A stretch of DNA of 60,504 nucleotides from a virus, in IMG/VR virus record IMGVR_UViG_3300023210_000036, positions 1 to 60,504 of that record. One strand, given 5' to 3'. This document shows, piece by piece, positions 1,976 to 20,675 of this stretch. The notes under the pieces are model-generated. The model was not told where the DNA came from, searched no databases, and saw only the letters and a program-made list of their open reading frames with translations. Made by a program: the position numbers and the translations under genes. Numbering within the stretch: position 1 is the first letter of the stretch; each line of letters opens with the position of its first letter.

Positions 1976-4705
1976 TTACCCTCCCATCTTACCTGTATAG
2001 AATGGAACTACCATCCGTTTTATTTCTTTTCCTTTTTTTGCCGCTTGTGTTGGATACCGAGGTATTCCTCCAATTCTATCTACTTCACGTTGAAGATTTG
2101 TATCACTTGAATTATTTTGGGTTCCATTTACTTCATTATTATATGCTTCCCACATATCTTTATTAAACTCTACACCAGGAGTTTTTCTTTGAAATTCAGC
2201 CAAGTTATCAAACCATGCTTCTGACCTATCCGGTTGAGTGCCAACTTTATTTAATGCATTTGGATTTGTTATGTTTATCATTCCCCCTGATAGAGGATCA
2301 ATTGCAAAGTTATCGTAAGTAGTGTTTAAGTTGTATGTATCAGCTCTATTAGTATCAGCTGTATTCCATAAGTCAGCATTTTTATTAACTTTCCAATTTC
2401 TAAAATTGTCTGCAGCTTGTAATACTTTTTGAGTATTGTCATAAACACCCGTTTGTCTTTTTGCATTCTCTGCATTAACTGCCATGTCATACTGTGCTTG
2501 CATAGCCCCATACTGATTCGCAATTCCAACATTATTTGTGTTAGTTCTATTTTGAACTTTAGCATTTGCATCCATTGCTTGACCTTGAATTAATGAATTA
2601 GCTACAGCTTGAGGTCCACCTACAGCTCCGAGTGCATTGGCCATAGTACTTGCAGATGCATTGTTTGCATTAACAGCTCCTCTCCAATCATCAAATGTGG
2701 GAGCTAATTGAATTCTTTCAGCATCTGGAGCCCATGGTAAATACAGATTATCATCTATTTGACCCAAAGCTGCAAGGCTCCTTAAATCTTGCCTCCAATA
2801 TTCTGGGTTTGGTCTAGAAATTTCTTCTGGGAGAATGGTGGGTATAATTTCAGGTGGTGATGGTGGATTATCAAATGAATCACTATCAGAAAAGTATTCT
2901 CTTTTAGTAAGTTTGGGGGCATTAAAAGTATGTAAACCATACATACCATCAAAACCATACCCGCCATCAGCTGGAGTTCCATCTGCATTGTTTTCTATAA
3001 ACCATGGCACATAAGTTATTCCTGCAGCTTCAGCGTCTAATTTTCTTTGTGCAGCAATATTTTTTTGAAATGCCAATGCTTGTTCATATGGCATATCCCA
3101 ATCCCATTCATTCCCAGAGTCTGTTTCATACTGATCCATTTGAGGACCCCACCTTCTTCGTAAGTCTGCTCTTCCTTCTTCTGATTGTATATCAGCTGAT
3201 CCATATGCGGTATTTCTACTATCAATAGAATTTTGAAGTGTGGGTCTGGTACCATCAGAAAATAAACCTTTATCATTAAAATAATCTTGATTTTCACTAA
3301 GAGCTCTGTTTTGTTCTGCAAGATCGTCACCGGTAATATTTACTGATCCAGAACCTTGTAGCTCTGAAGCTTGTCTTCTTTCTATATCAACTCTGGGAGC
3401 ATCTCTAGTTTCTGTTATAGTTACTGTAGTTCGTCCATTAGCATCAACAGTTGTTGAAAGTTCATGTCCACCAGCATCTAGTTTTTCTTGCCATACCTCC
3501 CACTTAGCTGGATCAATACCTGGATTACCATATCTTGTACTAGGTTCATCAATTATTTCTGTATCTACTACAGCAGGCTCAGTTGTTGCCTGTGTAGATT
3601 GTACTTGATATACTTCAGGTACGGGGGCACCATTTTTAGCAGCTCTTGCCATTTGCACAGCCTCTGATTTAGTCAGAGATGGAGCACCACTTTCAAATAC
3701 CCAAACTTCATTTGCTTCATCATATGTTGGATCTTCAACACCTTCTGGCCAAGACTGACCCATCCTTGTAGCATATTCTGATCCTGTCTCATTACCTCGT
3801 TGAGCTTGTTTTAATCTTCTTTCACCACCAAATCTAGCCATTGCTTGTTCTTGCATGGCCATTTCTTGATTCATTTGTTGTGGCTGTTGCATTGGTTGCT
3901 GCTGACCTTGTTGCTCTTGCTGTTCCATTTGAGCCATCATTTCCTGAAGCATCATTAGCTCTTGTTGCTTTTCAGGAGGCAATGCTGCAATAGCATTCAT
4001 TTGAGCTTGTTCTCTTGTTATCTCCTCCATCTTTGCAGTAAATTCAATAGGATCTATTCCTTGTTGAACTAAGTAAGGGTGTGCTGCAAGTGGTACACCT
4101 TCTTCAAATTTCTTTTTTGATTCTTGTCCAAAAGCAACTTTAGAAAGATTCATCATATTCTTTTTAAGCATTAATTCAGCTGTAGTAGACTGTATCTTAT
4201 CTGCATATGGAGATTCTAAATTAGCATAGTATTTATTTAACTCATACTTCTTAGATAATTTTGCAGGAGTCATTTTCTTTTTAGTACTAATACCAAACTC
4301 TGCTAATTCATCTTTATTGAATTTCATTTTATTTGTATCAGAATAAATAAAGGATTGTTCTGGTAAGAACATGGGAACACCACCACTAGAATGTCTAGGT
4401 CCTTTAATATCATACAAACCAAACACACCATCATTGGTCAAATCTGTTAATACAGTTTCTCCACCTTCTGCTTCTATATTTGCATTATCTCTAGGTACAC
4501 TTGATAGACTATATCTTACATCTTTATCATCTGTATTATTAAAATTAGTATTTCTATAATACTCTTGAGGAGTTGTTACTAAACCATAGTTTGCTTGATC
4601 ACCCGTGCTTAAATCACCACCATCTCTCATAAATTTATCTTCAACAACTTTACCATTGTCTAATTTAAATCCCGCAGGTAATTTATTTATTTTAATTTTT
4701 GCCAT
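1976..4705 (-). CDS. Giant cargo-type virion protein, 909 aa
   Basis: Residues about 75-220 contain a conserved-looking block (GGETVLTDLTNDGVFGLYDI, then HSSGGVPMFLPEQSFIYSD) that I know from large proteins of Bacteroidota phages; its role is unknown. Residues 245-285 are Gln/Met-rich low complexity (QQEQQGQQQPMQQPQQMNQ). Residues 291-304 carry a variant of the repeated GG...AQxG motif (RFGGERRLKQAQRG). A segment at 564-596 (YVPWFIEN ... MYGLHTFNA) has a counterpart in the neighbouring 1049-residue protein, pointing to a shared module. No cysteine is present. The gene starts 2 nt after the stop of the 1049-residue gene, so the two are surely co-translated. I infer a virion-internal, ejected protein; enzymatic activity is not evident. 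Confidence 0.8.
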   Translation of the reverse strand: MAKIKINKLPAGFKLDNGKVVEDKFMRDGGDLSTGDQANYGLVTTPQEYYRNTNFNNTDDKDVRYSLSSVPRDNANIEAEGGETVLTDLTNDGVFGLYDIKGPRHSSGGVPMFLPEQSFIYSDTNKMKFNKDELAEFGISTKKKMTPAKLSKKYELNKYYANLESPYADKIQSTTAELMLKKNMMNLSKVAFGQESKKKFEEGVPLAAHPYLVQQGIDPIEFTAKMEEITREQAQMNAIAALPPEKQQELMMLQEMMAQMEQQEQQGQQQPMQQPQQMNQEMAMQEQAMARFGGERRLKQAQRGNETGSEYATRMGQSWPEGVEDPTYDEANEVWVFESGAPSLTKSEAVQMARAAKNGAPVPEVYQVQSTQATTEPAVVDTEIIDEPSTRYGNPGIDPAKWEVWQEKLDAGGHELSTTVDANGRTTVTITETRDAPRVDIERRQASELQGSGSVNITGDDLAEQNRALSENQDYFNDKGLFSDGTRPTLQNSIDSRNTAYGSADIQSEEGRADLRRRWGPQMDQYETDSGNEWDWDMPYEQALAFQKNIAAQRKLDAEAAGITYVPWFIENNADGTPADGGYGFDGMYGLHTFNAPKLTKREYFSDSDSFDNPPSPPEIIPTILPEEISRPNPEYWRQDLRSLAALGQIDDNLYLPWAPDAERIQLAPTFDDWRGAVNANNASASTMANALGAVGGPQAVANSLIQGQAMDANAKVQNRTNTNNVGIANQYGAMQAQYDMAVNAENAKRQTGVYDNTQKVLQAADNFRNWKVNKNADLWNTADTNRADTYNLNTTYDNFAIDPLSGGMINITNPNALNKVGTQPDRSEAWFDNLAEFQRKTPGVEFNKDMWEAYNNEVNGTQNNSSDTNLQREVDRIGGIPRYPTQAAKKGKEIKRMVVPFYTGKMGG

Positions 4706-4707
4706 AA

Positions 4708-7700
4708 TTATAGTATTTCAATATCAGCTCCCGCTGCAATTAATTTTGCTAATGTAGTAGAGTCAACATCTACTGTATCTCCATTGTTTATCTCCATTCC
4801 TTGCTTAGCTATACCCATATTAGTTCTTACAGTTCTTTGTCCTTCACTACCAAAGGTGCCTGTATTAACATCCCAAGCACCCCTTTTCATAAAAGGATCT
4901 TCATTAGTGCCATATATTTCATCTGCCACTAAGTTATGTCTATTTTCTGCCTTAGCATCCGCATAGGCTTTATCTTCAAAATAATTATTAGCTACCCCAG
5001 CTATTTTTACTGCATCATCACTTACATTCTTATAAATTTCCATCCCTCTACTATCCATAAATCTATTATAACCACCTTCAAGTTTATTTTTTCTATCTAC
5101 CACGGGCTCACTATAAGAAGGGGGTCCTTGCTGATTAGAACCATCGTAGTTCTCCAAAGTGGATATCAAGTTTGAAACTTGAGGTCCATCAACTTTTTCT
5201 GCACCTTCTGGAATAGCACCTGTACTACTCAATTTATTTAACTGATCACCAAAGGAGGGTGTTTGTATATTTGATGGAGGGGGTGTAGGTAACCCAAAAT
5301 CTTGGTTTACATTAAACATACCACTTGCATTATTTATTCCATTTCCTCTAGGAGTGGGATCATAAACAATATCTTCTGAGGCATTAATATTATGTAAACC
5401 ATACATATCATCATCGTTTTCTGTAAAGTATGGCACATATTGCTCTGTAGATTCTTGAGTTTGTTCCCATGGTTCTCCTGTTGCTGGATTAATAGGACCT
5501 TCTATATTTTGATTATTATCACCAACATTATATGGATCAGGAAACATTGCCTCCCAGTCTCCACCTCCTGCTTGTGCTTGTGGTAAAAAGCCACCATATT
5601 TTCCAGCAACTAATGTTTTAGCACCTGCTTTACCAACTTGTTCAACACCTTCTTTAATACCTTTCTTAAAGATATTTTTTAATATTCCTGCACCAACATA
5701 AGTTGAAGGATCTGTAACTATATTTGCTCCAAGAGCAAGCCAAGGATTTTCAACTAAAGGATTTCCCTCAGCATCTTCAAGTGCGGCCAAATTCTTCATC
5801 TCACCATCATTCATGTTCTTAAAAGAAAAATCACCCTTCATGCCAGGCATAGCATCAGTAAAATTAAATTCACCATCCCCTCTTCCAGTATACCACTCAC
5901 CTGCTTCGGCAACTAGTGCGCCAGGTATACTTAGAGCATCCAGTGCATTTGAAGTATTAGTAATAGGATCTGCATTAATCATTTTAAGAGCGGGCCTAAC
6001 ATTTTCATTATAATAATTTGCAGCACCGCTAACTCCAGATTTTAAACTATTCCACGCACTACTAACAGGACCTGATCCATTACCTTCTTGTGCTTTAGGT
6101 ACACCACCATATCTAAATTCATCATCCCCAATAGAATTATATATCTCTTGTAGTTGACTTTGAGATTTACCTTGAAAATTAGATGCATTTTGAGCATACC
6201 AAGATCTAAAAGAAGGTCTTGCAATTGGAGTCGTATTAGCTTGTGGCGCTCTTGGTCCTGATTGTGCTGATGTTGGCCCACCGATTAATTCTGCAGAACC
6301 CAAACGATCAACTGTATTAGGAATCCCATCCCCATCAATATCTGGATTATAAGGATTTTGGTTAAAATCCATAATGCGGTCAATAGGGTTATCCTGGTAA
6401 TCTTTATACATACCGGCTTCTGGTTGACCAGTGAAACCTGTGGGTATCATGGAATCACTGACTTTATTTCTCCCCATCATGGTGTCATGGTAATATGGAT
6501 TGATGGCACCCGGTGCATAAGATGATGCATTACCTTGCTCATCAATACCTAATGTAGTTCCTTCAGGATCATCTTGAGTACCAAGGATTAAGTCTTTTGT
6601 ATCACCATCTGCATACTCATTAAAGTAATTTAAATTTTCTCCAAATTCATATGTAGAATTGGCATCTTTTTTACCTATACCTAAAAAGCCTTTTCTTTCT
6701 CCATATCTATCTTCACTCAATGGTCTACTAGATATTAGAGTATCATATTCTCCAGTTTCAACATTGAAATTAGCTCTAGAATTTTCATTTACATCATCTG
6801 TAAATGTTTGTAAATCTCTTAGAGTCCCATTATTCTTTGAAGCATTAAACAAATCTAAATTATCAAAAGCATACGTGTTAGGGTCATTCTCGTCTATTGT
6901 AACATCATAGTTATAATAGTCACCTTTTCCTTCTTTTCTATTTGCACGTCTTGTTTTTCTGTTAGTTATTGTTCCATCTTCGCCCAAAGTTCTATTGGCA
7001 ATGTTCCCTACAACTGACGCAACTTGTCCTAGATTAAAATTCTTTTTTGTTTCAAAGGCAAGTGGGTTTGCATAGTTAGGAGATGATGTAAGTACATCAT
7101 CTTTTTTAACTACACCTGTGGTATTAAAGAAATTCTGCGCTTCTGTTAATTCAGTTCCGCTTTGTGCTTTATGAACATACCCCATCTCTTTTAACTTGAG
7201 ATGTTGATCATATGTATTAGCCTTTCGTGATTTATTACCTTTATGCATTTCATGAGGTATAAACTCACCGCCATCTTCTCTTTTCCAACCTGCTGCATTT
7301 TTAGCAAAGTTTGCCATTTTAACTACAGATGTTGAATAAGCATCAGGATTAGACATTACTTTTCTAGCAGCTTCAAGAACACTCATACCACGTGCTTTAG
7401 CCCATCTAGTAAACTTACCTTTATTTTCAGGTTTAATTTCTATACCCGACTTTGCCATAAGATTTTGTGACATTGCATCTTGTTGTGCAACCATGGCTTG
7501 TTCTTGCTGTGCTTCTGCTTCTTGTGCTTCAATCTCCAATGATTGATTTCTAGCAATCTCTTGCGGATCTCTTGTTTGTTCTTCAGTAGATGCGGGAGGT
7601 GGAGGTTGAGATTGTTTTTGAACTTCTTCAAATAAAGCCATCACATCTTCTTGTTGATACCCGGCTGTCATAAACGCTTGTGCAATAATTTGTTCATCAA

Positions 7701-7857
7701 CTTGTTGTTCAACTAACCCCGCAACTATACTCACTGGGTCATCTCCATTATTGATGGAGTTAAAGATAAACTCTGTAATTTGTTGAATAGCCGGGTCAAC
7801 AGTTTGATTCTGCGCCTGTCCACCCATTTGTTTTAAACTTATTTTGTTTACTTTCAC
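4708..7857 (-). CDS. Giant cargo-type virion protein, 1049 aa, GTG start
   Basis: The first codon is GTG at 7857; an in-frame ATG at residue 11 (MGGQAQ) is a reasonable alternative start. Residues 15-140 are acidic/Gln-rich and helical. Residues about 138-197 hold a basic block (KSGIEIKPENKGKFTRWAK ... ANFAKNAAGW) whose pattern I know from many large phages but whose function is unknown. GG/AQ motifs occur at 229-234 (HKAQSG), 582-592 (RYGGVPKAQEG) and 753-764 (KYGGFLPQAQAG). A D-rich stretch near 504-517 resembles a thrombospondin type 3/Ca-binding loop (DPDIDGDGIPNTVDRL). Residues 807-826 match the YVP[WY]F...MYGLH module of the 909-residue protein. No cysteine is present. I infer an ejected structural protein; nothing shows catalysis. 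Confidence 0.8.
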   Translation of the reverse strand: MKVNKISLKQMGGQAQNQTVDPAIQQITEFIFNSINNGDDPVSIVAGLVEQQVDEQIIAQAFMTAGYQQEDVMALFEEVQKQSQPPPPASTEEQTRDPQEIARNQSLEIEAQEAEAQQEQAMVAQQDAMSQNLMAKSGIEIKPENKGKFTRWAKARGMSVLEAARKVMSNPDAYSTSVVKMANFAKNAAGWKREDGGEFIPHEMHKGNKSRKANTYDQHLKLKEMGYVHKAQSGTELTEAQNFFNTTGVVKKDDVLTSSPNYANPLAFETKKNFNLGQVASVVGNIANRTLGEDGTITNRKTRRANRKEGKGDYYNYDVTIDENDPNTYAFDNLDLFNASKNNGTLRDLQTFTDDVNENSRANFNVETGEYDTLISSRPLSEDRYGERKGFLGIGKKDANSTYEFGENLNYFNEYADGDTKDLILGTQDDPEGTTLGIDEQGNASSYAPGAINPYYHDTMMGRNKVSDSMIPTGFTGQPEAGMYKDYQDNPIDRIMDFNQNPYNPDIDGDGIPNTVDRLGSAELIGGPTSAQSGPRAPQANTTPIARPSFRSWYAQNASNFQGKSQSQLQEIYNSIGDDEFRYGGVPKAQEGNGSGPVSSAWNSLKSGVSGAANYYNENVRPALKMINADPITNTSNALDALSIPGALVAEAGEWYTGRGDGEFNFTDAMPGMKGDFSFKNMNDGEMKNLAALEDAEGNPLVENPWLALGANIVTDPSTYVGAGILKNIFKKGIKEGVEQVGKAGAKTLVAGKYGGFLPQAQAGGGDWEAMFPDPYNVGDNNQNIEGPINPATGEPWEQTQESTEQYVPYFTENDDDMYGLHNINASEDIVYDPTPRGNGINNASGMFNVNQDFGLPTPPPSNIQTPSFGDQLNKLSSTGAIPEGAEKVDGPQVSNLISTLENYDGSNQQGPPSYSEPVVDRKNKLEGGYNRFMDSRGMEIYKNVSDDAVKIAGVANNYFEDKAYADAKAENRHNLVADEIYGTNEDPFMKRGAWDVNTGTFGSEGQRTVRTNMGIAKQGMEINNGDTVDVDSTTLAKLIAAGADIEIL

Positions 7858-7876
7858 AACAATGATTTTATATTAT

Positions 7877-7888
7877 TAATATACAAAT
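7877..7888 (-). promoter_or_regulatory. Putative phage promoter element (weaker copy)
   Basis: On the minus strand this reads ATTTGTATATTA, sharing GTATATTA and the upstream T-run with stronger copies at 27157, 39863 and 57993. It lies only about 20 nt before the GTG start at 7857 and lacks the TATAGAGT half of the better copies. If transcription starts within the next few bases, the leader would be very short, or the ATG at residue 11 would be used. Confidence 0.35.
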
Positions 7889-7923
7889 AAATCAAGAGAT
7901 TTACTAATTTTTAAGGTTTAAGC

Positions 7924-10900
7924 TTACCCCACAAGATGTGACATAATATAGTTAGACGGGGACATACCTAAAGCTTTGGCTTCTTTATAATGCCTTCTAT
8001 TTAGTTTATCAAAAACTTTTTCAGAAGACTTATCTCTTGGTGTGTTATTATAATCGCCATTAACATAATTTTTAAATACACCATATTCTCCACCTTTAGC
8101 TAATACTGGAGGTGTGTTACTATTTGTAATATTTGTTGCTAAAAGCATATCATTATATTCATCTGATCCTCCATATACTTCAGTTATGTATCTATTAGTT
8201 TTAGATATATATTTTTCAGAAGGTGTTTCATATCCTAATACTAATGCAGCATCATACAAACTCTCTCCTCCTGGTATTCGCGAATAGTTAGTAGATGATA
8301 TATCAGCCATACTACCTTCGTATAGTTCTCTAAGAGCAGCTAGCTCTTCTTCACTATTTCGTGTATTTTCATCATTTCGTCCTGTTGTTAATAATTTGCT
8401 TACCCCTTGATTATAGGAAAGCAAAGTCATATTTCTGACATCTTCTTCAGCTAATCCTAATGTTGGATATTGTTGAGCATAGTTTTTAAATAATTCATAA
8501 TTTTTAACCAGCATATAACTAACTGCATCCACTGCTTTATTATCATCAGCTAGATCAGCTGGAGAATTTATTTCAAAATAATTTCGTGCAAAATTATCTA
8601 ATGAATTGTATTTTGTTTTACCTACACCAAGTGAAATATCTGCATCTTTTGTATTTTCCCACATATGCGCTAATGCTCTAGTTACACTTAAATCATCGCG
8701 TGTTCTAGGAGCATTTATACCACCTCCTGTTTCAACACCCGTGATGCCAAATATTGCAGCATTTAACCATTCTTGATCAATACTAGAATTTAATATTTCA
8801 GGGATATGCTTAGAATTATAATTTGCTCTTTGCATTATATTACTCACTATTTTTCTTTCTTCATCTGTTAAAGATCTTTCTATTTTGTTTTCAAAATTAT
8901 CTATAAGTGCTGAGTCAGTTTGAGAAAGTGCAATATCATCTGGATCTATTTGTTCAGCATAAGTAGCAGTAAGCTTAATATTTTCATTAGGTCTAGATAT
9001 CCAAGCCGTAGCTACTTCGTTATATGGTACATTTCTTATAGTACCGCCAACATTATGAGTAATTATTGGAGTACCATTTTCATCAATACTTGATACGAAC
9101 CCAGAATGGGTGTTATGTGTTTCTGAATTTAATGTTTCTAAGTGATGATCTGACCCTGGCCAATATATACCCACTATATCACCCACTTTATAATTTGATG
9201 CTGTTGTTTGGTGCTTTCTTTTTGCTTTAGCAGTTAGGTTTTTAAGCTCAGATATAGAAGTATTTTCATCAACATTGTCAAATAAAGAATCATCATATAT
9301 ATTAAATTGTACGGCACTATTTCCTACATGCTTCATGCTTTCTAATAAATCCCAAGCATCTTTATATTTAACCCCTATTGCCTCTGTTTCTATATCATTT
9401 AATTCTAATATTTGACACATACCAGCTGCACAACGTTCATCTTCTAATGTAGTGGGAATTGTATCAAAGATTAAACCCTCAACATCCTCTTCTTCTTCGG
9501 CTTTTGATGTATTATAATCTAACAATGCCATTTTTGTACGTTCACCAAACTTACCATCTATATTGCTTTTACCAGCCTCAGTTATTTCAGGTAAGAAACC
9601 TTTTTCTATAAGTTTGGTTTGAATAGCTTTAACTTCAGTATATGTTTCAGGATTATACTTTTTATCATATCTAGATATAGCGCTTTCTTCTAATCCTGCA
9701 TCTGCTATCATTGATGAATATGCATCATGAGTCCTTTGCCCATATATACCATCTGCACCTGTTGGTCCTATATCATATCCTCTTTCTAATAAGTCCCCCT
9801 GCATCAATTGTACATCTTCAGCACTTCGTTCAGTAAAATCTTCAAAACCTCTTTCATAATTTTGACCACGTTGATTAGCATTTGTAACAAATCCTGCTAT
9901 TTGATTGGGGTCTATATATTCTTGATCTATTAACTCTTGATCCCTTTGATCTTGTTCATAATTAAAATTTAACTCTTGATGGAAAGCCTCCAGATCTTCG
10001 GGAGATAAATCATTTATGTCTCGGCCAAGATGATCAGTAAGTATGGGTGAATTTAAATTAGTTCCATCCTGAATGCTGATTATAGGTGGTTGCAACAAAT
10101 TTATATCAAGCGGGGAAAGTTGTGTTATATCAACCTCTTCTTCTACTATATCTGCATCATTATCTGTATCTGGGTCAACTGGCACACCATAAGGAAAAGG
10201 ATAAGGATTTGGATCATTGCCGCTTTCATAGCCACCATCAAATGGATAAAATTCTGAACCATCCTGAGCTTTAGGTAATGAGCCACCGTAACGTTTTTTA
10301 AAAGATTTATAACCCCCTGTAATTCCCTTCTTCTTTGCTTCATCTACACTTTCTTGAAAGCTTGCACGATCACCGGGTTTTTCTATATTCTTATGACCTT
10401 GTAGCCATAAATCTACTTGTTCCATTTTACCATCAGAATAATCTGACAACGTTGCATCTGATTCTATCAAGTTGGCAAAGAATAATGTATATTGTTTATC
10501 CATTGGCAACAGATCTGCAGATGTAGCGTTTATTATTTCTGGATCTAGGGTAAAGCCTTTTGCTCTAGCAATATTTTTATATCTTGTTTGAGCTGTTTCT
10601 AATGATGGACCTTCAAACTGAAAAACACCTCTTCCTGGACCATCAAAAAGACTACCGTCTTCATTTTGTGATATTTGTTTAGCTAGTCTATCCATTCTTT
10701 GTTGAGCGCCACTTTCATGAAATGCAACTGTGTCTGCTGTATTACCCCAGAATTCTTCTGTTCCACCTCTTGATTCTGAAACATAGGCTAATATATTATT
10801 AAAATCTAATAGTGATTTATCTACTTCATCATGAAATTCACTCCAATCATTAGGTACTAAACTCTTTCCATTCCACTTGTATCCTTCGGGTGCTTCTTTA

Positions 10901-13900
10901 GGACCTACCTCTACTCCTCCTTGTGCTACAGGTAAAGTATCTGCATCTGGTAAAGTCCCAGTATCTGATATAGTGTTTAACATTTGTAAAATGGACTCCT
11001 CAGAATAAAGTCTTTTTAAGTCTCTAAAAGCTTTAACTCTTGAAGTTGGCATATCATCATATGTAATTTCTTTATTAAATACATCAACCCCATTAACCTT
11101 CATATCTTTTCTTATTTCATTAAGTCTAGCTCTAACTTCAGTAGGGTCGGAATAATAGTTTCTAGTCCCTTCTTCTGGTGTATCACCATAACTTTCCCAA
11201 AAACTAAGAGTTTTTCCTATATCAAGAGTTGGATCAATAAGATTACCCATAAGGTCTATATCATTATTTGGTATTAGTCTTCCTTCAGGATCCATTCCTC
11301 TTGCATAAAATTGAACTATATCTGTTAAGAGAAAGTTATCAGCAGGTCTATCAATACTATGTGAGATTTCATGATCATACAAAGTAGGCGCTCTCCCCCC
11401 AGATTTTGGTTTTACATAAATCTTTCCTGTATCAGATTCTGAATATCCTGCTATACCGCTAAGGGCCTTTTCAGAATAATATTGATTGGGGTCATTAGAT
11501 ATATATAATGGTGCATCTTGTAATTCGTTAAAATTACTAATTCTCCCACGTTGTACATCTCCAGCTCTATTCCACCATTCACTACCCCCACTATTATTTA
11601 ACATCTCTAAATATCTTGGGCTATTCATCCATTTACCTGCAAAATCTTTTGCTGAATCAAGATTCTTTTGATTGGCATTTTGCAATGCCTCATCCTCATG
11701 CATTATTACATTTCCATCTAGCCCGCTTACATAATCTAGACCTTTACCTATTTGTGCTTGTGGTAACTGTTCACCACCATCACGTTCATTTGCTAATACA
11801 GCCCCTACACCTGCTGCTGGAAACATCCATGCATTTTCTAATATGGGTCTTACAGCATCTTTCCATCCTTTACTTCCCGGTTTTAATATATTTCCAGCAT
11901 CATCTCCTAAGTTTCTAAAAAGATCATCAACACCAAATTTATTTTGACCATTAATAACATCATCTGAAAATTTAGATAATAAATCATCAGTTACTTTTCC
12001 ATAATTATATCCATATTTTGAAACTAGATTTTCAATAGCCATAATATGCCTTGCATTTTGTTCCATTGGATCAGATAAATATTCAAATCTGTTTCCATAA
12101 CCAGACATTGGTGTATTTTTTAATTCAGAGTTTATGGGCGTTGTCATATGCCGTTGCCCTTTATGAAATCCGCTGCTTATGTCTTCCATTGAAACAGCTT
12201 TCTGTTTTAACGCTTTTTGAATTGATTCTATACTTTCACCTTTAGCAAGTTTGCCTTTTGCTATATCATACATTGCATCAAGAAGTTCTGTATTACTACT
12301 TCCAAACTTTGTTTGAAATGCATGTAAAACTTCATGATCAAAAACGTCAAGATACGTATCAAGGTTAGGGCTATATCCAACTCCTGATCCGTCTGGTGTT
12401 TTTATTGTAATATTTTTTCCACTGTATATACCTTGAGTTTCTAGATCTTTATTAAATTTTACAACTATTTGATCAAAGGCATTTTCCATAGATTTTACAT
12501 CATCATTTATATATTTTGCAATATCTGCATCTGATGCGTTTTTAAATTTATCTGTTTCTCTTAACTGTGTACCTCTTCTTTTAATATATTCATCGCTATT
12601 TACCCATGCTTTTCTTTTTGTCACTACATCATCAAGTTGGGATCTTGTTAAATTTCCGGTTTCATTACGCCCCATCCTATAAGTTGCATTTTCTAAACCT
12701 TCAGTTGTAAATTCAGATACAGAAGGATTAAAGTAATCATCTACGTACTTTGCCCCGTCATCAATATACTTTGCTATATCATCAACATACTTTGGTAGTT
12801 TTTTAACTCCTGCCTTTAAGAATGCTCCTAGCTGAGCTTCTGGTAAACTTCCTCCATATTTAAGACCAAAACCTGCTGCTTCTCCTTCATCTGTTACGCG
12901 GATTTTAGTTTTAGGATTGCCAAAAAAATTTGTTTTATCTACTTGTGTAGCTAAAAGATTATCTTCCTTGTCATATATATTAAATTCTTGCTTTAATCTT
13001 TCTCTGTTACCGTTATTTACTGATTTAATATTCATATTAGAATACCCATCCTCATTAGTAACCGTGGTATCTTCCAAAAAAGTTTGCTTTAACTTTTCAT
13101 TACCATTGTTCTTTTTCTTAGAATTTACTTCATAAGAGCTAGTGCTATCAACATGAGAATCAGGAAGAACCCCTCCTCTTGGTGAAATTAGCCCTCCCGG
13201 ATACTGTGAGGAGAATGGTATTTCAGGTTGGTCAATGAGTGTTGCGGGTCTAGGAATTAAAGGTTGTATTGTTGTATTACCCTGGGCACCCGTATAATCA
13301 TAAGAGCCATTTGCAGGTATACCTGACCCATCAAACCCATATTGATCAATGGACACATTGGGTATAGTAGTTCCGTTAGGCCCAGCGGGTACTTTAGTGT
13401 TTCCAATTCCTGAACCATAAAAATCCCCAGTTATAGACGCTTCATCCCCCGGTTCTGTTCTTTCTCTATTTTGTACATCAGTTTCATTTTTTGTTTGTGA
13501 TTTTTTCCACCTCTCAGCCTCAATCTTAAAATCCGCAAGACTACCTTTGTTACCTGCAGCCAACCAGTTTTCGTAACCCACCTTCCAGTTTACACCACGC
13601 TTAGAATATTCAACATCACGGTTACCAGTTCTTTCGTCAATTATTGTTGTGGCACCTGTAGTTGGATTAACACTTCTGCTTATCTCAGCCCAATCTCCGT
13701 ATATAAATGGGTTTGCAGAAGTTTGATTTAACTCAAAACCCTCTTGAGCCCTTGGTAATGAACCACCTCGTCTCAGTTTCTTTTTCCAAGATCCTTCACC
13801 AAACTTAATAGCTGCTTCTTTATTAGTTCCAAAGTCTATTACCTCACCTCTTTTCAATGCTTCTTGATATACAGGTTCCCACGGTTCTTCTAAAGAGATT

Positions 13901-14349
13901 GACATATCTACCCATGTTCCATCTTCATTTTGAAATAATGTAGGAAAAGAAAACCAATTACCTTTACCGTCTGTTTCTGTTCTCATTATATGAGTAGACT
14001 CCCCAACTACATTACCTTCTTTATCATAATTTAATCTAACTCCCTTTCGTTTAGGGACTTCCCGACCTGCTTGAGCCATTGGTACTTCAAATACTTGATC
14101 ACCAGGAAATTGATAGTTATTACCCGGAGTCATTAATTTTCTATTACCTAAGTTATCAGTTCCTATTACCGGAAAGTCTACACCCTCCATGGTAATATTA
14201 CCTGAGTTAATAATATTGTATGGATTATTTACATCTGGACTATCTGCCTTGTACCCCTCTAAGGAATAAAAATCAGAAAAGTTTGTTATATATTCATTTG
14301 GGCCGCCCTTTAGACCAATGCTTTTTTTGTTATTTGAGTAATTTGCCAT
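7924..14349 (-). CDS. Multidomain envelope-degrading virion polyprotein, 2141 aa
   Basis: Probable virion-carried entry protein with several hydrolase-like modules. In order: 1-195 unknown; zincin-like module with HEVLH at 672-676 and SDPMEQNAR at 759-767; second zincin-like module with HEISH at 993-997 and SDPTEVRAR at 1067-1075; lysozyme-like module with candidate catalytic Glu1212 (FHESGAQQ) and GPGRGVFQFE after it; two peptidoglycan-binding half-repeats, each with DGxxGxRT (1533-1540, 1598-1605); Cys/His peptidase-like module with C1640/C1645, H1748 and H1765; second lysozyme-like module with Glu1873 (GVETGGG). C1640 and C1645 are the only cysteines, which favours a functional role. Copies of a GG-LP-AQ motif separate the modules (193-204, 497-508, 856-868, 1139-1145, 1353-1364; a short form at 91-95). 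The gene overlaps the muzzle stop (TAATG). Domain names rest on motifs only. Confidence 0.85.
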   Translation of the reverse strand: MANYSNNKKSIGLKGGPNEYITNFSDFYSLEGYKADSPDVNNPYNIINSGNITMEGVDFPVIGTDNLGNRKLMTPGNNYQFPGDQVFEVPMAQAGREVPKRKGVRLNYDKEGNVVGESTHIMRTETDGKGNWFSFPTLFQNEDGTWVDMSISLEEPWEPVYQEALKRGEVIDFGTNKEAAIKFGEGSWKKKLRRGGSLPRAQEGFELNQTSANPFIYGDWAEISRSVNPTTGATTIIDERTGNRDVEYSKRGVNWKVGYENWLAAGNKGSLADFKIEAERWKKSQTKNETDVQNRERTEPGDEASITGDFYGSGIGNTKVPAGPNGTTIPNVSIDQYGFDGSGIPANGSYDYTGAQGNTTIQPLIPRPATLIDQPEIPFSSQYPGGLISPRGGVLPDSHVDSTSSYEVNSKKKNNGNEKLKQTFLEDTTVTNEDGYSNMNIKSVNNGNRERLKQEFNIYDKEDNLLATQVDKTNFFGNPKTKIRVTDEGEAAGFGLKYGGSLPEAQLGAFLKAGVKKLPKYVDDIAKYIDDGAKYVDDYFNPSVSEFTTEGLENATYRMGRNETGNLTRSQLDDVVTKRKAWVNSDEYIKRRGTQLRETDKFKNASDADIAKYINDDVKSMENAFDQIVVKFNKDLETQGIYSGKNITIKTPDGSGVGYSPNLDTYLDVFDHEVLHAFQTKFGSSNTELLDAMYDIAKGKLAKGESIESIQKALKQKAVSMEDISSGFHKGQRHMTTPINSELKNTPMSGYGNRFEYLSDPMEQNARHIMAIENLVSKYGYNYGKVTDDLLSKFSDDVINGQNKFGVDDLFRNLGDDAGNILKPGSKGWKDAVRPILENAWMFPAAGVGAVLANERDGGEQLPQAQIGKGLDYVSGLDGNVIMHEDEALQNANQKNLDSAKDFAGKWMNSPRYLEMLNNSGGSEWWNRAGDVQRGRISNFNELQDAPLYISNDPNQYYSEKALSGIAGYSESDTGKIYVKPKSGGRAPTLYDHEISHSIDRPADNFLLTDIVQFYARGMDPEGRLIPNNDIDLMGNLIDPTLDIGKTLSFWESYGDTPEEGTRNYYSDPTEVRARLNEIRKDMKVNGVDVFNKEITYDDMPTSRVKAFRDLKRLYSEESILQMLNTISDTGTLPDADTLPVAQGGVEVGPKEAPEGYKWNGKSLVPNDWSEFHDEVDKSLLDFNNILAYVSESRGGTEEFWGNTADTVAFHESGAQQRMDRLAKQISQNEDGSLFDGPGRGVFQFEGPSLETAQTRYKNIARAKGFTLDPEIINATSADLLPMDKQYTLFFANLIESDATLSDYSDGKMEQVDLWLQGHKNIEKPGDRASFQESVDEAKKKGITGGYKSFKKRYGGSLPKAQDGSEFYPFDGGYESGNDPNPYPFPYGVPVDPDTDNDADIVEEEVDITQLSPLDINLLQPPIISIQDGTNLNSPILTDHLGRDINDLSPEDLEAFHQELNFNYEQDQRDQELIDQEYIDPNQIAGFVTNANQRGQNYERGFEDFTERSAEDVQLMQGDLLERGYDIGPTGADGIYGQRTHDAYSSMIADAGLEESAISRYDKKYNPETYTEVKAIQTKLIEKGFLPEITEAGKSNIDGKFGERTKMALLDYNTSKAEEEEDVEGLIFDTIPTTLEDERCAAGMCQILELNDIETEAIGVKYKDAWDLLESMKHVGNSAVQFNIYDDSLFDNVDENTSISELKNLTAKAKRKHQTTASNYKVGDIVGIYWPGSDHHLETLNSETHNTHSGFVSSIDENGTPIITHNVGGTIRNVPYNEVATAWISRPNENIKLTATYAEQIDPDDIALSQTDSALIDNFENKIERSLTDEERKIVSNIMQRANYNSKHIPEILNSSIDQEWLNAAIFGITGVETGGGINAPRTRDDLSVTRALAHMWENTKDADISLGVGKTKYNSLDNFARNYFEINSPADLADDNKAVDAVSYMLVKNYELFKNYAQQYPTLGLAEEDVRNMTLLSYNQGVSKLLTTGRNDENTRNSEEELAALRELYEGSMADISSTNYSRIPGGESLYDAALVLGYETPSEKYISKTNRYITEVYGGSDEYNDMLLATNITNSNTPPVLAKGGEYGVFKNYVNGDYNNTPRDKSSEKVFDKLNRRHYKEAKALGMSPSNYIMSHLVG

Positions 14350-17300
14350 TATCTAAGGGATGTAAGTAATTTAGTATTATTTAATCTTAATAACATCTTT
14401 CTATTATCAGAATCCATTTTACGCAATATTACATTAGTGAAGTAGTGTCTAAACTTTTTATGTTGTAATGGGGATTTTAAATAGTTTAAATTAATAAAGT
14501 TTAAATTTTTAATATACCCATTAGGTTCAGTATCCCATATAGGTTGCTCAACATTGGTAAATTCTCCTCTATCATTTGTAATATCCCAAAATTGATTAAA
14601 TCTATATTTCTGTTCTACTTTAGAACATAAGATATTAATATTGTTTCCATTAATTATAGGATAGGTTAATTCTAAAATGGGGTTATTAAATGGAGTGGGA
14701 GTTAATTGCAATAACCCTGATACCTGCTCATTATTGTAGATGACCGATTGATCAAAATTAAAGTTTAGATCTTCCCATTTATCATCACCGCACAAAAACC
14801 CAGGATCATTTTTATATACATATGCTTCCATCTGATATTCCATACTTCGTACAGTGTTGACTGTTTGCCCTGTATTAGCCACTAATTCTATTTCCCATGG
14901 ATATTGTATATTATAAAAATTAGCATAACTATCACATCTAGCATTATGTCTCCATAGTGTACCCGCATTATAGTTGGCGGGCACAGAATCATAATAAAAA
15001 TAATTGCATAATGGAGGATCAGGATTAACCCAATTAGGGTCCCCTATAGCAAATAATCCTGGTGCAGAATCTGGGCAAGTTCCAGTTACTGTTGTTGTTG
15101 AATTAGGAATAGTAGATTCAGGACAACCGCATATAACTTGTCTACATATGGGGGGTCTTTCATATTTGCATGGACCATCCTCATCGGTGTATAAATTTGT
15201 TAATTGGTTTGGGTATACTAATGTATAACCAGTGGGACACGCACATGCAATGGGTTCAGAACAGACACCACTTGCTATTTCTTCTGCTGCAGCATCTATT
15301 CCAGCGCTTACGTTAGCACTCATTGTAAGCTGGTATGGACCCGGTGTTCCTGTACTTGTATCATATGTAGTGTTAGAAATATTATTCATTACTACAGCAC
15401 TTGGGGGAGTGCTGGATGTTGCACCACAATATATTGCATATATTTCTTGTTTACGCTGATCAACAGCTATATTAGCAGGTGAACTTTGTAAATTATTTTC
15501 AGCCCACTCACCTGTATTTTGAGCTTGGGGTGTACCTGCTGTTGCATTTGGAGTTTGAAATTTATTTACATTGTTTTCTGCTAGTCCATTTGTTCCATCT
15601 GTTACAACAATTAAAATTTGCTTAAAAGATGCATTTTCTTGTCTAGTTGGATATTGAGATGCAAAACTTGAATTTGCTTTATCATTTAATTGTGCTAAAC
15701 CACCTTGCCCTGATGTTGGACTTGCTGTACCAATTGCCGCCACCACACTAGTGGTGCCACCAGCCCATGCGCCAGTATACCAATTGCATGCCTCTTCTGG
15801 TAAAACTGTATTAGTCATTGATTTATTACCAGGTTGCATCCATCTTACACCACTACCAGACCACCCTTGAAATCCAACTTGCATAGTTCCTGCAGACATT
15901 GCCCCACTAATTGATGTATTATTTAAAAATACATGTAACCAACGTAATTGAGCTGATGCACGGGTTACCATTGGTGCTGCTATAGAACCAGTAACACAAT
16001 TAATAGTCGGAATACCTGTACTTCCTGACCAATCCATTGCAATTACAATATCTAATTTGCAATTTTCTCCTCCACCAGTTATTGTAGAAACTATATCACT
16101 TACATCTATGGTTGCGTTTGCTGTTGTATTTACGGCTTGTTCACATAATCCAGTATCAGGATTAAAATTATATCCCGGAGGACACAGAGGTGTATCCGTA
16201 AGTATAGTCTTAGTAGTAAAAAAGTGATTTATACTTGGTATAGAAAATTCAGGATGCCAATCATGAAAAGATATCCATGCTTTAGCTTTTGGATCATAAC
16301 TAATAGTCCAAGATGCGTCATCAAAATAAATAGGGTCTCCTAAAATTATAGGAATCTTTCCATGAGCTGTCTCTAACATAAAGCCTGTTAAAGCACCGTA
16401 TGTTATCATATCAATCCATTCACTCTTTACTCTATAATCCTTCTTCATAAAGTAGGCAATGTCATCATTCGGATCATATATAGATTGACATCCCACACCT
16501 ACTACCGCATTATCTGATAATTTAGAATATTCTAATTCGGGGTACTGCTTAATTAATTGTGATGGTAGATACTTATTAAACCACCACTTCATTCCTTTAT
16601 TAGATATAGGATCTAAACCTTGACCAGCATAATGGAAAATCTTTCCTTGTGCTTGCGAGATATAAAATATTCCCATTGGTGTATTCATAACTCCTCTTAA
16701 ACTTTCACATGAACCATATTCATTTGAAAGATCTGAGTTAGTTATATTCTGAAAGGGTTGGCTAAACAATCCTCCATCACCTATAGTTATTTTAGTATCT
16801 AATCCTGTTTTAAGAGTATCTAAACCCTGAAACATTTGTGGAGATAAGTACGGGAAAAATACTATTGCTCCACTTTTATTAATAGGTTTAATAATACTTA
16901 CTTTATTTTTAAAGTCTTTATAATTAAAATTTAAGAAAACTCTCCAGTAATCTTTTTTAGATTCATGTTGTGCCTGTAGCGAATATATAAGTCTTTTAGG
17001 ACGACTGACATAACAGTTGGCTGCTACATAAGGATCATAATATCTGGGCTGTACTTGTCCAAATGAAGTTATTTGACTTGTTAATTTAGAAGGACTTAAT
17101 GATTCATCATACTTATAAAAGTTATCTATTTTTTCTATTTGAGCATGAAATAATTCTGTTAAATCATTATACTCATATATATTATATATTCTTTTTGCTG
17201 CTGTATCTTCCCAATCTCTATGAGCTAAATTTATTTCTGACTCAACAAAGAAATCTAAAATACCATTTGAATGACTATACATATACGCATATCTCATTGC

Positions 17301-20300
17301 AAATGCAGGATTAGGATCACTACTATTAAATACAGTACCTATAGAAAAGCCTCCGCAACTTTGACTACCCCTATCTAAATAAAATAAATCATTGGGAAAC
17401 ATGGAGTTTAATGCTCCTGTACTTAGAATACCAAACGAAGCAATTTTAGTAGCTAATTCAGTCATATCAAATCTTAGAGAATTTAACCAAAATCTTGGAT
17501 AGGGTATATTTACATGATTTGAATAGTCATAAGTAAACTCATCTGGCTGACCCAGTAAATACTGAGAAAAAATAGGCATTATTACTTTTTCAGTATACCT
17601 ATTAATAAATATATCTCCTGCAAAAATTGCACCCGATGAATTCATGAGTTCATCTGGTTTAGTAGGATCTAAATAATTTACACAACCCCTCATAGGTATT
17701 TGTTTTATACCATCAAGTTGTCCGTATTGATTATCAAAATTAAATTTAAGTGCTCCATAATAAGCAGAAATAGGTTGTTTTTTAGATATAGAAGGGTCTA
17801 ATAGATAATTGGCAGAATAAGGAGTTGTTGTTCCATTTGCATTTACATGACCTCCTACAGTAAATCTTGATGTATCTTGTTGAGAAGGTTCATCAATTGG
17901 AGTATCTAATGATACAGCAACTGTACTTGGTCTAAATAAATTATTAATTTTATATTTTCCGCTATCAAAAGATTGAAAAGATTGGCCTATATAGTTTGAG
18001 TCACGATTTTTAATTCTCCATAATCCTGTGTTTCTTTTCCTAAAATCAGTAAACTGACCAGTTGAATTATATTTTAGTACAAAATCTCTCTTCTCAATTA
18101 AATTATATAATAAATCTATTATCTCATTACCTCCAATTGCAATATTTGTTGATGTAGATAATATACTTAAACCAGCTTTTAATAGGGTGGGTAATTGTGA
18201 AAAGCTTGTTGTTTGATTATTAACAATTGTAAATTCACCAGAATGTGTAGCTGGAGAAGCAACATATCCACTGTTTGCAATACCCGAATAATATCCGTCT
18301 AAAAGCCCTAGAGCAAGACCACCCCCCCATAAATCTGCTAAAGCGGCAGCATTATCCGCATTATCATATATATTTATAGCTGCTTGCATAGTTGCTGCTC
18401 CTGCAGCTGCTCCTGCAGCATCTGATACATAATTAGCACCCACAGCTCCGGCACTCGCCCCTATTCCAGCAACAAAAGAGCCAAAGTACCAATCACTTGC
18501 TCCTTTTATTCCATAGCCACCTGAAGTTTGAGTACTTCCCGATTCACCCCTAACTTGTTTTATAGCATAACCTACACCAATAGCTGCAGCAATTATAGCA
18601 GAACCAGATCTTAATAATTTAAATTGAGGGTGATCTTCAGATGCTTTAAATGATCCAGTTTGATATCCGCTTAAATCACCATAAATTCTTGTTTCATAAG
18701 CATTTAGAAATGGTTTAGTAAACATTAAATCAGGAGAAGAAAAAGTAAATGCTTCTTTTGAATAACCCGTTTGTACTCCATCAACAATACCAAAAAATCC
18801 TAAAGGTTTAAAGTTATTTATAGATTGAGCTAAATTATTACATCCTTCTGTTCTATTTAATTCAACATCATCATCATCATCAAATGTTCCGTCATGAAAA
18901 TACATGTCAGGTCTTAAATCATTATAGGGATAGTTGGGATATAATCCTTGCACTGATCCTCCTATTAAATTTTCTGAATCTGGAACAGTATATTTTCTCA
19001 TATTTCTAAATAGCCCTTTTGCTAAAATAGATTTTGCACCACCTCTTGATCCTCTTAAGATTTCATACCCAACAACATTAGTGATATATGTTCCATCGTT
19101 ATTTGTTGGTTGACCTATATTTGTAAATTCAACACCTAGAAGATTTATTGAATCCCCACTGGTAGTACTTATATGTAATGCTGAATTGGGTCCAAAACCA
19201 CCTCCATCTTCTGCAGGCATCTTATGGTGTCTAATAGGTTTACCACATAAATCCCCCCATATATCAGGTCTATTAATAGGATATTTTTCTGTAGATTCCC
19301 AATAACCCATCTTTCCTTTTGCAATTATAGAACTTCCATCAGGTTGTGTAAGGTTTGGCTCTGAGGTTATTACTCCAGTATTATATACTTTAAATAATGG
19401 GTCTCCACCAGGCTCTATAACATTTGCTCCCCAAATAATTTCATTCTCCATTGTCATATTACCATTATCTTCTTGGAAAAGCTCTGCTTCTCTGCCGGGT
19501 ATATGATATGAACTTGATCTTTCTCCTGTATTATATATCCACCTTATGAAAAAGGCGTATTGTTCATCTCTTAAAAACCCCAACTTATTTCCTCCTAAGT
19601 GATAGTATTCTGAAGATATTTGGTTAACAACGAAATTTGTTTTAATATTATTTGCAATAGGCTGATAATTAAAATCAAACTGTTCTACAGGTCCTTGTCT
19701 AAGAAGCCAATCATTAACAACATACATTGCTTCTGATTTTTCATATGCAGGACTTCTCTTGGGGATTACTTTTAAATCTACTGATACTAATGAATCATCT
19801 AAATAATCAATGTTAATGTCTTTACGTTGAGTACTGTATAACCCCACACGTTTAGCATATGTTTGCCCTTGATTCCTTACTAGTAGAGCAAGCTCAAAAT
19901 TTTCAAAATTTAAATCTAAATTTGAAATAGATATATTTAATGAGTTTTTTGTTCCTTCATGACTCCATAAAGTTTGTACATTTGAGATACCTATGTAGTC
20001 TGTTACCCGTTGTTCATTTTCTGTATATGCAATAAAGGCTTGATAAGAACCATTCATTAACATACCACCATCAATTGATTTAGTTAACTCAACACAAGGT
20101 GTGTCCACTAAAGGAGCCAATCTTATTTTTTCACAATTTAATTGTAATGGTTCAAAGTCACTATAGACTATGCAAGGATCTCCATCAGGTGAACTTATAT
20201 ATTGTATATATGGTATATCATCTATATTTAAACTTCTAGAAGGATTATTGGAATCATCCCAGTATACTTGCCATGTACAATCAAAGTTTTCTTTTGCAGC

Positions 20301-20675
20301 ACCAGTAATAAGAAATTCTTTATTAAACGCTAAACATGTGTCATTAACTAAAGTAGTATACTTACACTCACTATCATCAAACCTTCCTATTTCTGAACTA
20401 AAATTATCAGTGGAAAATATTATCCACTCATCACCATATCTATGTATGGCACCAATAACTGTGTAGGGTATAACCCCGCATTGTAAATTAGCAGGTTCAT
20501 TACCTATTACACCCATATCACCATCATTGGAATTATTGGCAGCATTACGTGCATGCCACCAACTTTGATTTGGTTCCATAGCTTGCGTAATATCCTTATT
20601 CATTCCTTTTATGAACGAATTAGTAACTACAGAGGTTGTGCCCTTTTGGTTATTTGGTGCTTTTTGTTTTGCCAT
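14349..20675 (-). CDS. Muzzle-type tail protein with inserted vWA domain, 2108 aa
   Basis: Likely the large distal tail ('muzzle') protein of a crAss-like virion. The start matches the family pattern I know: SFIKGMNKDI then WWHARNAANNSNDGDMGVIGNE. The typical late block WISFHDWHPEFSIPSINHFF is at about 1467-1486. Right after it, residues about 1500-1835 hold a Cys-bounded insert (CPPGYNFNPDTGLC ... CPTGYTLVYP) containing a von Willebrand A domain: MIDAS DxSxS is D1548-W-S-G-S1552 and the later acidic site is D1693 (VVTDGTNG). Ala/Gly-rich segments at 690-770 could be hydrophobic hairpins. There are many cysteines throughout, unlike the cargo proteins downstream. The gene is preceded by two ring/connector-type genes, as expected for this family. 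The vWA domain could bind a host surface ligand or metal; that is inference. Confidence 0.85.
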   Translation of the reverse strand: MAKQKAPNNQKGTTSVVTNSFIKGMNKDITQAMEPNQSWWHARNAANNSNDGDMGVIGNEPANLQCGVIPYTVIGAIHRYGDEWIIFSTDNFSSEIGRFDDSECKYTTLVNDTCLAFNKEFLITGAAKENFDCTWQVYWDDSNNPSRSLNIDDIPYIQYISSPDGDPCIVYSDFEPLQLNCEKIRLAPLVDTPCVELTKSIDGGMLMNGSYQAFIAYTENEQRVTDYIGISNVQTLWSHEGTKNSLNISISNLDLNFENFELALLVRNQGQTYAKRVGLYSTQRKDINIDYLDDSLVSVDLKVIPKRSPAYEKSEAMYVVNDWLLRQGPVEQFDFNYQPIANNIKTNFVVNQISSEYYHLGGNKLGFLRDEQYAFFIRWIYNTGERSSSYHIPGREAELFQEDNGNMTMENEIIWGANVIEPGGDPLFKVYNTGVITSEPNLTQPDGSSIIAKGKMGYWESTEKYPINRPDIWGDLCGKPIRHHKMPAEDGGGFGPNSALHISTTSGDSINLLGVEFTNIGQPTNNDGTYITNVVGYEILRGSRGGAKSILAKGLFRNMRKYTVPDSENLIGGSVQGLYPNYPYNDLRPDMYFHDGTFDDDDDVELNRTEGCNNLAQSINNFKPLGFFGIVDGVQTGYSKEAFTFSSPDLMFTKPFLNAYETRIYGDLSGYQTGSFKASEDHPQFKLLRSGSAIIAAAIGVGYAIKQVRGESGSTQTSGGYGIKGASDWYFGSFVAGIGASAGAVGANYVSDAAGAAAGAATMQAAINIYDNADNAAALADLWGGGLALGLLDGYYSGIANSGYVASPATHSGEFTIVNNQTTSFSQLPTLLKAGLSILSTSTNIAIGGNEIIDLLYNLIEKRDFVLKYNSTGQFTDFRKRNTGLWRIKNRDSNYIGQSFQSFDSGKYKINNLFRPSTVAVSLDTPIDEPSQQDTSRFTVGGHVNANGTTTPYSANYLLDPSISKKQPISAYYGALKFNFDNQYGQLDGIKQIPMRGCVNYLDPTKPDELMNSSGAIFAGDIFINRYTEKVIMPIFSQYLLGQPDEFTYDYSNHVNIPYPRFWLNSLRFDMTELATKIASFGILSTGALNSMFPNDLFYLDRGSQSCGGFSIGTVFNSSDPNPAFAMRYAYMYSHSNGILDFFVESEINLAHRDWEDTAAKRIYNIYEYNDLTELFHAQIEKIDNFYKYDESLSPSKLTSQITSFGQVQPRYYDPYVAANCYVSRPKRLIYSLQAQHESKKDYWRVFLNFNYKDFKNKVSIIKPINKSGAIVFFPYLSPQMFQGLDTLKTGLDTKITIGDGGLFSQPFQNITNSDLSNEYGSCESLRGVMNTPMGIFYISQAQGKIFHYAGQGLDPISNKGMKWWFNKYLPSQLIKQYPELEYSKLSDNAVVGVGCQSIYDPNDDIAYFMKKDYRVKSEWIDMITYGALTGFMLETAHGKIPIILGDPIYFDDASWTISYDPKAKAWISFHDWHPEFSIPSINHFFTTKTILTDTPLCPPGYNFNPDTGLCEQAVNTTANATIDVSDIVSTITGGGENCKLDIVIAMDWSGSTGIPTINCVTGSIAAPMVTRASAQLRWLHVFLNNTSISGAMSAGTMQVGFQGWSGSGVRWMQPGNKSMTNTVLPEEACNWYTGAWAGGTTSVVAAIGTASPTSGQGGLAQLNDKANSSFASQYPTRQENASFKQILIVVTDGTNGLAENNVNKFQTPNATAGTPQAQNTGEWAENNLQSSPANIAVDQRKQEIYAIYCGATSSTPPSAVVMNNISNTTYDTSTGTPGPYQLTMSANVSAGIDAAAEEIASGVCSEPIACACPTGYTLVYPNQLTNLYTDEDGPCKYERPPICRQVICGCPESTIPNSTTTVTGTCPDSAPGLFAIGDPNWVNPDPPLCNYFYYDSVPANYNAGTLWRHNARCDSYANFYNIQYPWEIELVANTGQTVNTVRSMEYQMEAYVYKNDPGFLCGDDKWEDLNFNFDQSVIYNNEQVSGLLQLTPTPFNNPILELTYPIINGNNINILCSKVEQKYRFNQFWDITNDRGEFTNVEQPIWDTEPNGYIKNLNFINLNYLKSPLQHKKFRHYFTNVILRKMDSDNRKMLLRLNNTKLLTSLR

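Follow-up and report, generated by a model that had tools for sequence, protein, structure and literature searches.

A repeated peptide in three large post-muzzle proteins

Three large genes in the IMG/VR virus record IMGVR_UViG_3300023210_000036, all 60,504 nucleotides of which were analysed and are called the window below, encode the proteins P0001, P0002 and P0003, in which a short peptide of the form GG-x-LPKAQ-x-G recurs. The window is a fragment of a crAss-like (Crassvirales-like) phage: profile searches matched the crassvirus major capsid protein (PF23898, E 1e-30), tail ring 2 (PF25702, E 1e-14), the portal (phrog_6547, E 4e-85) and the terminase (phrog_6681, E 3e-62), with tail ring 1 (PF24228) falling slightly under the cut-off. 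The motif is real, is specific to cargo genes and to viruses, is conserved at the protein level and marks joints between protein modules. Its role is probably that of a recognition tag, by which the cargo proteins that carry it are either packed or cut.

The three motif proteins come after P0004, the product of the gene at the muzzle position, the same order as in crAss001, where the muzzle gp44 is followed by gp45, gp46 and gp47. In GenBank, the post-muzzle genes of phages phi4:1 and phi14:2 are annotated, with one small exception, as virion proteins identified by tandem mass spectrometry, and the crAss001 cargo proteins were detected in virions by mass spectrometry (PMC10172136). By analogy with these three relatives and by gene order, P0001, P0002 and P0003 are presumably packed in the virion as well.

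A preliminary description of this DNA had listed motif copies in the 2141-, 1049- and 909-amino-acid (aa) proteins, and every one of them is present at the residues it gave (Table 1). Its strict formula, [KR][YFR]GGxLPxAQxG, fits four copies, the remaining ones being shorter or degenerate variants. In the three proteins together (4,099 aa), GGxLPxAQ occurs 4 times against 0.0003 expected from residue composition and PxAQxG occurs 8 times against 0.06, a count that never exceeded 2 in 2,000 shuffles. The pattern is confined to four places in these genes across the whole record, and P0004 lacks the full motif.

Table 1. Positions of the motif copies and of the genes discussed in the window
Feature	Residues	Coordinates	Strand	Remark
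P0001, 2141-aa modular cargo protein		7924..14349	-	first gene past the muzzle-position gene
Copy 1, VPMAQAG	P0001 89-95	14065..14085	-	end of conserved head domain in ~70 relatives
Copy 2, RRGGSLPRAQEG	P0001 193-204	13738..13773	-	
Copy 3, KYGGSLPEAQLG	P0001 497-508	12826..12861	-	ahead of HExxH module 1
Copy 4, RDGGEQLPQAQIG	P0001 856-868	11746..11784	-	between HExxH modules
Copy 5, LPVAQGG	P0001 1139-1145	10915..10935	-	between HExxH module 2 and lysozyme-like module
Copy 6, RYGGSLPKAQDG	P0001 1353-1364	10258..10293	-	ahead of C-terminal wall-binding/peptidase block
P0002, 1049-aa cargo protein		4708..7857	-	
Short form, HKAQSG	P0002 229-234	7156..7173	-	HDAPKAQTGGE in relatives
Copy, RYGGVPKAQEG	P0002 582-592	6082..6114	-	
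Copy, KYGGFLPQAQAG	P0002 753-764	5566..5601	-	
P0003, 909-aa cargo protein		1976..4705	-	
Degenerate motif, RFGGERRLKQAQRG	P0003 291-304	3794..3835	-	IPMAQEGGE to MYQDGKE in relatives
P0004, 2108 aa, muzzle position		14349..20675	-	anchor for fetching 78 relatives
Major capsid protein		43704..45323	-	PF23898
438-aa acidic coiled-coil scaffold-like protein		45365..46681	-	between portal and capsid genes

Conservation of the motif and its position at module joints

We fetched 78 related viral loci with P0004 and compared their open reading frames (ORFs) after filtering for redundancy. LPKAQ was found 38 times among the 132,840 aa encoded downstream of the muzzle and 0 times among the 152,893 aa of the upstream structural ORFs. 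The motif is restricted to cargo genes and kept in relatives; permutations of its letters occurred on average 0.4 times. When [LVI]PxAQ alone was required, the surroundings still gave [Y]-G-G-[SE]-L-P-K-A-Q-x-G, a pattern some 10 residues long in which 80% of cases have G at +5 and 54% have K at +1, and whose flanks carry near-background information. Genomes without the full form carry joint variants such as YGGSLRKAQEGKE, YGGDLDKAQFG and YGGGLTKYQ, which reduces the core to GG-x-L-x-K-[AY]-Q. LPKFQ was also considered as a common alternative form and rejected, as it was found in 3 stretches only.

A scan of all viral contigs recovered at least 119 GGxLPKAQxG stretches, against 4 for the swapped control GGxLPKQAxG. 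Among the viral matches listed, 142 are in frame; 136 of these fall in ORFs 300 aa or longer, and 89 fall in ORFs bearing more than one copy. The crassvirus capsid gene is present in 31 of the 42 motif-bearing records, while a few are other phages. One of these, L185, is about 33 kb long and encodes a phage DNA polymerase; it and its close relative L161 are not crass-like in appearance, and both have small basic proteins with LPKAQ close to the N-terminus. By comparison, 84,980 cellular genomes yielded 62 GGxLPKAQxG stretches, which is chance level, with none in an ORF holding a second copy. An occurrence of the motif in bacterial genomes was rejected on these grounds, and one of the stretches (L246) resembles a phage contig.

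Selection acts on the peptide. The 52 GGSLPKAQ sites are spelled by 46 distinct DNA sequences, with synonymous variation in the codons of every fixed residue, and this diversity led us to reject a DNA-level explanation. In genomes near 115 kb in size, every strict-motif copy is on one strand, and the reversed pattern is absent (0 copies). Of 108 complete motif ORFs, 9 (five families) have a copy no more than 60 residues from the N-terminus, and 1 has a copy equally close to the C-terminus. The N-terminal copies include MSRKLKNKSKKILPKAQSG, MRKMKKQLPKAQSG and MKIRIIGLPKAQIG, the last from Leptolyngbya phage Lbo-JY46. The listed host of Lbo-JY46 is a cyanobacterium, and the phage has a crass-like muzzle-cargo block along with its N-terminal LPKAQ (L366, 17868-19322); the stated host may deserve a check. 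We found no description of the motif in phages in the literature searched, which left out most subscription journals and all bioRxiv preprints and in which LPKAQ appeared in 8 papers, each on an unrelated subject; to that extent the earlier remark that such a motif is undescribed in crAss-like phages stands.

P0001 is built from a conserved head (residues 1-95), a second N-terminal domain (104-185), HExxH modules at 672 and 993, a lysozyme-like module (~1210-1250) and a PG_binding_1 domain (best stretch 1571-1610), followed by a Cys/His peptidase-like stretch (1640-1750), a second lysozyme-like stretch (1871-1980) and a conserved tail (2050-2141). PG_binding_1 is the sole domain that Pfam recognises in this protein, whereas the labels 'zincin' and 'lysozyme' come from sequence motifs. 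Both HExxH motifs of the three proteins are in P0001, with none in P0002 or P0003, and the zincin domain has no Pfam match. As judged from these sequence signatures, the copies at 858, 1141 and 1355 appear to be flanked by the HExxH, lysozyme-like and PG_binding_1 modules, in line with the modular placement described earlier. Only the head of P0001 (1-95, in part up to 240) and its tail (2050-2141) are conserved among relatives, between which the middle is swapped, and in P0003 a conserved N-terminal part of 290 residues is followed by the degenerate motif and then by a variable part.

Homology blocks start 8 times above expectation just ahead of the motif and end 8.7 times above expectation just past it. 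With the motif masked, and with randomly chosen stretches masked equally as controls, a homology break occurs at 62-65% of motif copies (~64%) against 25-32% of controls (~29%), and alignments cross 29-32% of copies against 61-65% of controls. The motif is thus a mark of the joints between exchangeable modules. A check for homologues in which it lies inside folded domains or is lost, the refuting outcome named in the preliminary description, did not refute that reading.

Structure prediction of P0001 residues 1-260 with AlphaFold2 places VPMAQAG (89-95) at the opening of a low-confidence gap and GGSLPRAQ (195-202) within one (predicted local distance difference test, pLDDT, ~30), next to the better-predicted parts 30-90 and 104-185, although overall confidence was modest (pLDDT 61). 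For P0003 residues 1-330, the pLDDT of 42 was too low for a comparison with the portal-bound fold of crAss001. A fold search of the PDB with the P0001 N-terminus returned nothing (best E 0.33), while the BFVD gave matches to a phi4:1 virion protein and a protein of Virus NIOZ-UU157; sequence searches of the PDB with P0001, P0002 and P0004 gave no meaningful match. Residues 112-204 of P0001 (13738-14014, - strand), a domain ending in FGTNKEAAIKFGEGSWK, presumably resemble a short domain of other podoviruses' internal virion proteins.

Variant GG motifs are found at equivalent joints in the cultured phages crAss001, phi14:2 and phi4:1. In crAss001 gp45 these are AYGGPLE (207-213), AEGGGL (261-266), AFGGSL (330-335), AFGGWL (425-430) and AYGGDT (560-565). 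Like P0001, gp45 (C1; Bayfield et al. 2023, PMC10172136) is encoded directly after the muzzle and has modules parted by GGxL joints; it is an ejected cargo protein, as P0001 presumably is. Its joints (AFGGSL/AYGGPL) lack LPKAQxG, and it is one 842-aa protein in contrast to three larger ones here. Residues 132-199 of P0002 (7261-7464, - strand) form a small domain common to crAss001-type C1 proteins (tblastn matches in cr128_1 and cr127_1), whose counterpart in gp45 was placed by eye at ~371-424 and confirmed by tblastn in the gp45 homologue of cr128_1. This domain of about 60 residues (IKPENKGKFT...MANFAKNA) recurs in C1 proteins of gut crassviruses, sometimes duplicated and typically followed by a GG joint; in gp59 of DAC15 (L268, 7425-9923) it is a tandem duplicate, with each unit edged by A[YE]GGxL...DGGG joints.

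In the Cellulophaga phages, the HExxH modules of phi14:2 gp081 and phi4:1 gp040/gp041 are likewise edged by GGxVDPP[ST]K, a joint that phi14:2 carries repeatedly and that differs from the motif here in the letters past GG and in having fewer copies. The modules of phi4:1 gp041 (L362, 17752-19971) and phi14:2 gp081 (L274, 15361-17142) are 50% identical, and their alignment starts exactly at GGxVDPPTK. The virion protein gp040 of phi4:1 retains the first joint as VPNFQAGG. These two phages belong to different taxonomic groups and infect the same host species.

Possible roles of the motif

With a short conserved peptide, a disordered setting and selection at the protein level, the motif has the properties of a short linear motif. 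We tentatively favour, at somewhat below an even chance, a docking or loading motif for a virion partner. The peptide GG-x-LPKAQ-x-G would then be a short linear recognition motif on proteins packed and ejected by crAss-like phages of Bacteroidota, sited in the disordered joints between exchangeable modules and sometimes at the N-terminus itself. Each copy might be gripped as an extended peptide by one phage-encoded partner, such as the portal wing, the inner tail barrel or a scaffold, so that the cargo chain would be taken up and kept one module at a time, extended along the path through portal and tail, with the GG pair acting as a hinge that lets the modules traverse the tube in succession. 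The partner and the docking step are what we infer. Three observations place docking slightly ahead of processing, namely the sequence specificity beyond that of a linker, the N-terminal copies, where a hinge or a separating cut is unneeded and a tag or leader is needed, and a coincidence in crAss001. In the crAss001 virion, gp45 is resolved at residues 214-245 in the tail barrel and 425-552 at the portal (PMC10172136), and three of the four ends of these segments lie within ~8 residues of a GG joint, which is suggestive only.

Several points weigh against docking. Loading needs just one tag per protein, so that several copies at joints suit cutting at least equally. Strong co-variation of motif letters among the cargo proteins of one genome had been expected, but it was weak, with 59 of 96 pairs in agreement against 48 expected, a level reached by 50 of 2,000 shuffles. 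Furthermore, the FGG joints of crAss001 are equated with LPKAQ by position and the GGxL core alone, which makes them putative equivalents.

The closest competitor, possible but on the doubtful side, is a processing site at or beside which a protease, either an embedded zincin or an unrecognised phage enzyme, cuts and frees the enzymatic modules, whether before packing, in the head or after injection, with the N-terminal copies as cleaved leaders. The internal-protein propeptides of T4 offer a comparison for such leaders. In T4 and phiKZ, maturation-protease sites and capsid-targeting propeptides are likewise short signals repeated on internal head proteins, N-termini included; these sites end in E (LxE, [SAG]xE), unlike the motif here, and no S77 or S78 protease was detected here. 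Processing would explain several copies per chain at the joints of a multi-enzyme chain, and it accords with the low-confidence inter-domain segments in which AlphaFold2 predicts the copies to lie. HExxH is also much commoner in the cargo region, with 35 occurrences in 208,482 aa, than upstream, with 1 in 383,759 aa, although it is missing within 10 kb from 22 of the 42 cargo regions that bear the motif, and in cis from 26 of the 47 proteins that have more than one copy.

Known giant proteins bear on this alternative in both directions. Polyvalent proteins (Iyer et al. 2017, PMC5512222) are giant, injected and multi-domain, with zincin-like modules and free module exchange, a plan that the window proteins may share. 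No description of a joint motif was found for them; the three proteins here have, in addition, a conserved joint peptide in several copies and predicted cell-wall enzymes. The zincin-like peptidases of polyvalent proteins were proposed to self-process the injected proteins, and P1 DdrB is cut ahead of packaging, yet the N4 virion RNA polymerase bears a zincin and is packaged uncut (PMC5512222). Virions of crAss001 show bands of 150, 270 and >300 kDa and were found to contain the large subunits of its RNA polymerase (PMC6235969), but these are proteins without the motif.

Peptidase_S78 was found in 0 of 42 motif-bearing records, whereas four control genomes were positive; S77 was likewise found in 0 of 42, but its control was silent too, so that this result is uninformative. 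No Pfam protease was present among the window structural genes searched, and the product encoded between portal and capsid looks like a scaffold, with no protease signature found in it. The absence of S78 in the 42 records, the scaffold-like gene and the 22 regions without HExxH make the term 'polyprotein' premature, and a processed polyprotein is a possible outcome. The preliminary description had offered maturation-protease sites or loading tags as its two hypotheses. The first is disfavoured by these findings, and the tag fits slightly better.

It is improbable that a host factor, such as a periplasmic chaperone, translocon or protease, reads the motif after ejection and aids refolding or envelope crossing. 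Such a role would suit cargo bound for periplasm and cytoplasm as well as variants that differ by phage group (GGxVDPPxK in Cellulophaga phages, [FY]GGxL in gut crassviruses), but the GGxVDPPxK similarity of phi4:1 and phi14:2 accompanies a shared module, which indicates descent and not independent adaptation. A little less credible still is a passive hinge or recombination seam, in which the motif would be a flexible joint only or a short DNA homology for module swapping. The flexible GG and the location at swapped joints agree with it, yet a sharp motif of about 10 residues with near-background flanks is too specific for a plain linker, LPKAQ far exceeds what a hinge requires, the many DNA spellings of GGSLPKAQ contradict DNA homology as the reason, and N-terminal copies exist. 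Chance, or shared ancestry of a few sequences, is very improbable: some copies do occupy homologous positions, but the redundancy-filtered counts, letter permutations, swapped-motif scan and genome scan refute it.

Crassviruses load, hold and eject protein amounting to several megadaltons, of which cryo-electron microscopy sees only short pieces of one cargo protein. A short tag makes the way in which they do so directly testable, since it can be mutated or synthesised as a peptide (KYGGSLPKAQDG, with KYGGSLPKQADG as control). As a loading tag, the motif would account for the acceptance of unrelated modules as cargo, and as a cut site it would disclose an unknown phage protease. In both cases it is an easy marker for cargo genes in unannotated phage genomes. 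A broader version of the docking proposal, which we regard as unlikely though worth stating, is that GG-x-L-(P)-K-A-Q-x-G and its lineage variants form a dedicated peptide code for swappable payload units throughout a phage order, read by one virion component. If so, any tagged module would be packed and ejected, giving a natural plug-in system for protein delivery.

Other features of the window

A 480-aa protein (56181-57623, - strand) matches the CHU_C domain, a type IX secretion signal (E 9e-15), and the presence of such a domain in a phage genome suggests a Bacteroidota host. A probable endolysin with PG_binding_1 and Amidase_2 is encoded at 54872-55807 (- strand). Around residue 1590 of P0004, the stretch DIVIAMDWSGSTG looks like an insertion of a von Willebrand A (VWA) domain with a metal ion-dependent adhesion site (MIDAS), and a 738-aa protein (24904-27120) has a weak VWA match as well. 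In the tail region, the gene at 22966-24189 (- strand) has a weak calcineurin-like phosphoesterase match, and a metallophosphoesterase occupies a comparable place in phi14:2.
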